Assembly (NCBI GenBank): GCA_001803565.1
Contig: MHDQ01000283.1
Coordinates: 1-5,474, forward strand
DNA from: Nitrospinae bacterium RIFCSPLOWO2_12_FULL_45_22
Lineage (GTDB): Bacteria > 2-12-FULL-45-22
Direction: 5' to 3'
DNA length: 5,474 nucleotides
A program made the translations under genes and the position numbers. This document shows, one piece after another, positions 2,317 through 3,545 of this stretch. Below the pieces are notes generated by a model. The model was not told the origin of the DNA, did not search any database, and saw only the letters and a list, made by a program, of their open reading frames with translations. The first letter of the stretch is position 1, and every line of letters begins with the position of its first letter.

Positions 2317-2321
2317 GGAGG
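2317..2321 (+). promoter_or_regulatory. Ribosome binding site that points to an ACG start for proB
   Basis: GGAGG at 2317-2321 is followed by a 7-base spacer and then ACG at 2329, the codon that lines up with the expected initiator Met of ProB. A second candidate, GAGGAG at 2331-2336, lies only 4 bases before an in-frame ATT at 2341. The first arrangement has the better spacing and the better N-terminal fit. Confidence 0.5.
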
Positions 2322-2328
2322 ATAAGAA

Positions 2329-3450
2329 ACGAGGAGAGAAATTTTAGGTGACTTAAAGCGGATAGTAGTAAAGATTGGCAGTGGGGTTCTGACCAGTACC
2401 GGCCAGGGCCTTGCCATTCCTATAATAGAAAACTTGGTAGATCAACTGGCAACTGTCCAGGGATCAGGCTTAGAGGTCTTGTTGGTTTCCTCCGGCGCTA
2501 TAGCCGCCGGCCTAAAGGAATTAAACCTGCCTGAAGTACCTAAAAGCATCCCCCATAGACAGGCGGCTGCTGCCATTGGCCAGAGCCATCTCATATGGGT
2601 TTACGAAAAATTTTTTAGTCAACGCAACCAAAAAGTTGCCCAGATACTCTTAACTCATGATGACCTGAGTAATCGTCGAAGATACCTTAATGCCCGCAAT
2701 ACCCTCTTTACCCTACTACGATACCGCGTGATCCCGATAATAAATGAGAATGATACTGTAGCGGTAGAAGAGATCCAGTTCGGTGATAATGATAACCTAT
2801 CCGCTCTGGTAACCAATATGGTTGAGGCAGACCTTCTCTTGATCCTTTCCGATGTAGACGGTTTTTATACCGCTGACCCCCGCAGTGATCCTCAGACCAC
2901 CCTATTGTTGCAGGTAGATAAGATAACTTCGGCTATAGAAGCTATGGCTCAACCGAGCCAATCCCCTACCGGTCGGGGTGGTATGATTACCAAAATCCAG
3001 GCTGCCAAAAAAGCCGGGGTCTCAGGGGCTATGACTATTATCGCTAATGGTAAGCTCCCAGGGGTAATTTTGGGAGTATTGGCAGGCGAGGAAATAGGGA
3101 CTCTGTTTTTGCCGCAGAAAGACCGGCTGGCTAGCCGCAAACACTGGATTGCTTATACCCTAAAGCCAAAAGGTGAGGTAGTGGTAGATGATGGGGCCAG
3201 AGAAGCCCTCATCAGGAATGGTAAGAGTCTTCTGCCTAAAGGCATAGTGGAGATCAGAGGGAAGTTCGCTCCGGGTGATGCTGTGACCTGTCTTGATGTT
3301 AAAGAGAAGGAGTTTGCCCGGGGTATAGTTAATTATTCCTCTGAGGAGCTAAAGGCTATTAAAGGCTGTTATTCTAAAGAGATAGAGGAGATTCTTGGCT
3401 ATAAATTTTATGACGAGGTAATTCACCGGGATAATCTGGTATTGCTCTGA
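2329..3450 (+). CDS. proB: Glutamate 5-kinase (gamma-glutamyl kinase)
   Basis: ProB phosphorylates L-glutamate with ATP to gamma-glutamyl phosphate, the first and usually proline-inhibited step of proline synthesis. An amino-acid-kinase domain (about 1-255) shows KRIVVKIGSGVLT at 10-22, VSSGAIAAG at 53-61, NENDTVAV at 139-146, FGDNDNLSA at 151-159, LSDVDGFY at 173-180 and GRGGMITK at 215-222 (often GTGGM in the family). A PUA domain fills about 281-373. The 373-residue length fits the family (E. coli 367). The frame is closed upstream by TAA at 2323-2325 and has no ATG, GTG or TTG before TTG at 2434, which would delete the KIGSG loop. I place the start at ACG 2329 because xRREILGDLKRIVVKIGSG resembles typical ProB N-termini and GGAGG lies 7 bases upstream. 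ATT at 2341, or a sequencing or mutational T-to-C change, are alternatives. Product certain; start tentative. Confidence 0.93.
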   Translation, partial: TRREILGDLKRIVVKIGSGVLTSTGQGLAIPIIENLVDQLATVQGSGLEVLLVSSGAIAAGLKELNLPEVPKSIPHRQAAAAIGQSHLIWVYEKFFSQRNQKVAQILLTHDDLSNRRRYLNARNTLFTLLRYRVIPIINENDTVAVEEIQFGDNDNLSALVTNMVEADLLLILSDVDGFYTADPRSDPQTTLLLQVDKITSAIEAMAQPSQSPTGRGGMITKIQAAKKAGVSGAMTIIANGKLPGVILGVLAGEEIGTLFLPQKDRLASRKHWIAYTLKPKGEVVVDDGAREALIRNGKSLLPKGIVEIRGKFAPGDAVTCLDVKEKEFARGIVNYSSEELKAIKGCYSKEIEEILGYKFYDEVIHRDNLVLL

Positions 3451-3472
3451 GATGCACGGACTTTGTCCATCT

Positions 3473-3540
3473 GTCACCCTGAGCGTAGCGAAGGGTCTTA
3501 GTCTGTGAGGATTGAGATTCTTCGCTTCGCTCAGAATGAC
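3473..3540. repeat. Intergenic inverted repeat of the GTCACCCTGAGCG family
   Basis: Arms 3473-3498 and 3515-3540 are inverted copies matching at 21 of 26 positions, separated by 16 bases. Each arm also folds on itself: ACCCT (3476-3480) pairs with AGGGT (3492-3496), and ATTCT (3517-3521) with AGAAT (3533-3537). The mismatches between arms mostly fall in these stems and are compensatory. This is another widely dispersed intergenic repeat type, unrelated to the one at 2139-2201. It fills most of the 109-base proB-proA gap, ends just before the proA ribosome binding site, and has no T-run that would make it a terminator. Read in frame with proA it encodes a spurious FFASLRMT peptide. Confidence 0.85.
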
Positions 3541-3545
3541 CTGGT

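Follow-up and report, generated by a model that had tools for sequence, protein, structure and literature searches.

Absence of a canonical start codon in proB

The proB gene of the Nitrospinae bacterium analysed here has no canonical start codon in front of its active-site loop, and we confirmed that such a start is indeed missing from the sequence as assembled. The codon standing in its place is an ACG at positions 2329-2331 of the window (the whole stretch of 5,474 nucleotides that was analysed, which is contig C283 of the assembly; all features lie on the + strand), and it stands either for weak initiation that is regulated or for a single wrong letter in the assembly. Gene finders accept only ATG, GTG and TTG, so that genes such as this one are truncated or dropped; a standard gene call here would start at TTG 2434 and lose the active-site loop.

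The proB frame is closed upstream by an in-frame TAA (2323-2325), and the next ATG, GTG or TTG is reached only at TTG 2434-2436, which lies too far downstream and has no Shine-Dalgarno match. These frame limits had been given exactly in the initial annotation, as had the geometry of the Shine-Dalgarno motif GGAGG (2317-2321), which a 7-base spacer separates from the ACG. The same annotation held that a protein begun at 2434 would be missing its phosphate-binding loop, and indeed the KIGSG codons of this segment (2371-2385) precede the TTG; the first 34 residues after ACG would be lost. As the sequence stands, ACG is the most likely initiation codon of proB, being placed in the start column of ProB proteins and having the best Shine-Dalgarno context in the frame. 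A second Shine-Dalgarno-like run, AGGAG (2332-2336), is found within the RRE codons, 4 bases before ATT 2341 and 7 before TTA 2344. Farther upstream, a short in-frame ORF of 14 codons (MNLASVIKPIVGGG, 2281-2325) opens at ATG 2281, for which no Shine-Dalgarno match was found, and ends at the TAA 3 bases before ACG; it is a possible leader peptide, likely there by chance. GTG 2315 opens another frame, which a one-base insertion would fuse to proB. The start region is weakly folded (z +1.5). Searches for a consensus promoter or terminator close to the proB start, and for Rfam families anywhere in the window, came back empty, and the start region, with either C or T at 2330, had no exact match among the viral contigs scanned.

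Integrity and neighbourhood of the gene

The proB gene (2329-3450) is intact to its stop, and from 2332 its frame comprises 372 codons with no stop. The product matches TIGR01027 over model positions 1-362 of 363 (E 1.3e-133; 445.7 bits, with a curated cut-off of 186), carries the domains PF00696 (AA_kinase, with the KxG[ST] loop) and PF01472 (PUA), and aligns nearly end to end with solved glutamate 5-kinases. It is encoded by the sole copy in the genome, and the downstream neighbour, proA, is intact as well. By these sequence criteria proB is an intact, selected gene, and its enzyme is predicted to be a glutamate 5-kinase.

The window carries rplU, rpmA, obgE, proB and proA, followed by a last gene that is probably the start of nadD, as judged by its CTP_transf_like domain. 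The rplU ORF (283-792) has 169 codons, of which the L21 profile spans residues 3-103 only, leaving a 66-residue C-terminal extension. In the gap between obgE and proB, which is only short in the nearest relative (G001), we identified a MITE-like repeat (2104-2244) with terminal inverted repeats, the 31-nt arms of which are 77% complementary. It is predicted to form a strong hairpin (z -5.7); three further copies, complete or almost so, match it at 98-99%, and partial ones lie at contig ends. A different dispersed repeat, GTCACCCTGAGCG...CTCAGAATGAC, lies between proB and proA (3472-3545) and has more than 12 partial matches in the genome.

Position of the ribosome start site

When the RREIL codons that follow ACG were scored on the relatives' profile, they surpassed all of 245,112 random genome positions; after the start column the profile reads R, K/R, E, I/L, L. 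The four codons 5′ of ACG were unremarkable on the family profile, 5% of random positions scoring as well. The RREIL match indicates that the frame is coding from 2332 on. It places the ancestral start of translation no later than 2332 and so speaks against an original start at ATT 2341 or TTA 2344. The Shine-Dalgarno motif points to the same place: in the genome sample, 19 of 56 strong sites have a spacing of 7 bases, which is the mode, while a GGAGG at about the spacing of the ACG is seen at 0.6% of random positions. Taken together, the spacing and the conservation of RREIL make 2329, the site preferred in the initial annotation, the most likely start, and we consider it very probable on these comparisons that ribosomes begin there.

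ProB loci in relatives

We assembled a set of ProB loci from a genome search and from 80 contigs of the genome collection, which, with the window counted, yielded 104 loci that encode a KxG[ST]-type motif. The window was the only one of these in which a canonical start was absent upstream of the motif, and this held under a stricter cut. The start column itself contains a canonical start in 47 of the 103 relatives (ATG in 35, GTG or TTG in 12). None of the relatives among the loci compared, all of which lie outside the genus and the nearest of which is only 70% identical, uses ACG as a start; a more distant one, L046, does have ACG in the start column, but it also has an ATG four codons upstream.

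It had been proposed, as one of several possibilities, that the ACG derives from an ancestral ATG at 2329. The frequency of ATG in this column speaks for such an origin, whereas the nearest relative speaks against it: G001, whose ProB is the one that is 70% identical, has GCT in the start column and begins at an ATG that lies eight codons farther 5′, so that its N-terminus carries a charged extension (MDNDQEKRA). Since G001 starts eight codons upstream, this lineage may have started elsewhere, and it is possible, from the alignment, that an ancestral upstream start was lost in the present genome.

Other genes without a canonical start in the same genome

The draft assembly totals 3.67 Mb, is split into 321 contigs and has a completeness of 85%. 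We sampled start codons in 497 kb, or about 14% of the genome, made up of the window and 40 further stretches. ORFs were ranked by the coding-like score of the portion preceding the first canonical start, so that the screen went by score rather than gene by gene. In a 251-kb sample, proB headed the 161 ORFs that are 150 codons or longer, with a pre-start score of 11.9 against 5.7 for the next. In the larger sample, with 366 ORFs of 100 codons or more in 497 kb, proB was outscored by a few. Among the highest scorers there, only prfB had a clear family match, and the remaining ones with no family match look like shadow ORFs. Other ORFs with a high pre-start score and a family match were considered as cases similar to proB and set aside, their homology beginning at about the first canonical start or after it.

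Three family-identified genes with no canonical start were noticed in the 497-kb sample, namely infC, the downstream part of prfB, and proB. In infC (L137, about 1480-1500; G000:C56) the N-terminus contains no ATG, GTG or TTG, and an AGGAGG is followed after 7 bases by ATA, or by an ATT just before it; the infC genes of several relatives likewise have no canonical start, which is a known trait of infC. The downstream part of prfB lies at L143 14920-15966, and a short upstream ORF begins ATGTTAGAAGATTTG, a layout consistent with the classical programmed frameshift. A frameshift of this kind was also considered for proB, in which no such site was seen. Among the three genes, proB is thus the only one for which a known reason is absent.

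Is the ACG real?

We put the chances at about even that the ACG at 2329 is the true base and the real start. The main rival is that the C is a consensus error, or the base of a minority strain, and that the true codon is ATG, with the start site still at 2329; this we regard as a serious possibility, if one well short of even. ACG is a single transition away from ATG, in the very column where ATG occurs in 35 of 103 relatives, the source is a fragmented and incomplete draft assembly, and no other family-identified gene of the sample shows a missing start that has no textbook reason. However, the other genes of the window look clean, and roughly one codon in three would become a canonical start by a single base change, so that the one-step relation between ACG and ATG is weak evidence. 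If the base is an error, then a single letter of a draft genome makes an intact enzyme gene look like a fragment.

A start site other than 2329 seems unlikely to us; like those above, this weighting is a judgement and not a computed value. Such a site could be GTG 2315, if a base has dropped out of the AAGAAACGAGG stretch, between 2318 and 2345, in which case the protein would carry a charged extension, for example MEDKKTRREIL. The N-terminus of G001 does carry a charged extension in the equivalent position, but GTG 2315 is preceded by no visible Shine-Dalgarno motif, inspection by eye showed no good slippery sequence at which a programmed shift could occur, and the ideal distance of GGAGG from the ACG would have to be a coincidence; we hold this frameshift to be very unlikely. 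More improbable still is a start at ATG 2281, with TAA 2323 being a nonsense mutation or with ribosomes restarting at ACG through leader-peptide coupling. That ATG is in the proB frame, and its ORF stops only 3 bases 5′ of the ACG. However, besides its want of a Shine-Dalgarno match, the peptide read from it is unlike that of any relative seen, and the codons directly 5′ of ACG do not fit the family profile.

Initiation could also take place downstream of the ACG, at ATT 2341 or at TTA 2344 (as an altered TTG), by means of the AGGAG, whose 7-base distance suits TTA 2344. ATT has been documented as the start of infC (PMC5472188), and E. coli ProB chains begin near these two codons; even with an N-terminus this short, the enzyme would roughly equal that of E. 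coli in the length of this end. Yet the RREI that precedes them is conserved as protein and was therefore translated in the ancestor, and the spacing to ATT 2341 is only 4 bases; the latter codon, which the initial annotation had put forward as an alternative, is accordingly less well supported than 2329, and we would be surprised to find either of the two in use. Finally, the loss of the start codon could be a first step of decay in cells that make no ProB enzyme and take up proline, and a mobile-element-like repeat is indeed inserted in the obgE-proB gap, but all 372 codons that are left are undamaged and match those of G001 at 70% identity, and the neighbouring proA is intact, so that we find this reading hardly credible.

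Possible mechanism and comparison with known systems

The GGAGG at its usual 7-base spacing would set the ribosome start at 2329. If the ACG there is real, the initiator tRNA would read it as Met by pairing at two of the three positions, and the strong Shine-Dalgarno motif and the weakly folded region could both aid initiation. In E. coli, the output of ACG is a small fraction of that of AUG, and IF3 discriminates against ACG. At the proB ACG, initiation would presumably be inefficient and, like that of infC, held back by IF3. We tentatively suggest that a biosynthetic enzyme may here have a real ACG start, by which proline synthesis would be set low and tied to IF3 through an infC-like near-cognate codon, an arrangement that we nevertheless consider rather doubtful. 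Two traits of near-cognate-start genes are found in proB, that is, no canonical start 5′ of conserved coding sequence and a strong Shine-Dalgarno motif at normal spacing. The literature searched yielded no report of a bacterial gene that starts with ACG, the ACG starts described there being eukaryotic, viral or organellar.

Compared with the other ProB loci of TIGR01027, the window likewise encodes a full-length enzyme with AA_kinase and PUA domains in a proB-proA pair, but it is the one locus of 104 with no ATG, GTG or TTG before the phosphate loop. To our knowledge, no C-to-U mRNA editing of the organellar kind occurs in bacteria. The chloroplast starts that are likewise ACG in the DNA at the start position depend, in contrast, on such organellar editing, by which they are converted to AUG (PMC9845219). 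The sigR gene of Streptomyces offers another likeness, being one individual gene whose start (GTC) is very rare and which gene finders misannotate, and its start, like the ATT/ATC starts of infC, is repressed by IF3 (PMC5472188). However, the GTC of sigR has been proven by experiment and is conserved in Streptomyces, whereas the ACG of proB is known from one sequence alone.

The likeness to infC lies in a near-cognate start that follows a strong Shine-Dalgarno motif, as in the infC of this very genome with its AGGAGG, 7 bases and ATA/ATT. The rare start of infC (AUU, AUC or AUA) occurs widely among bacteria, where it completes a feedback loop through IF3, while that of proB occurs in one genome only and, unlike that of infC, differs from AUG at the second position. 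If the proB start is real, a metabolic gene would join the very short list of bacterial near-cognate-start genes, which would suggest that proline synthesis is controlled by IF3 at translation.
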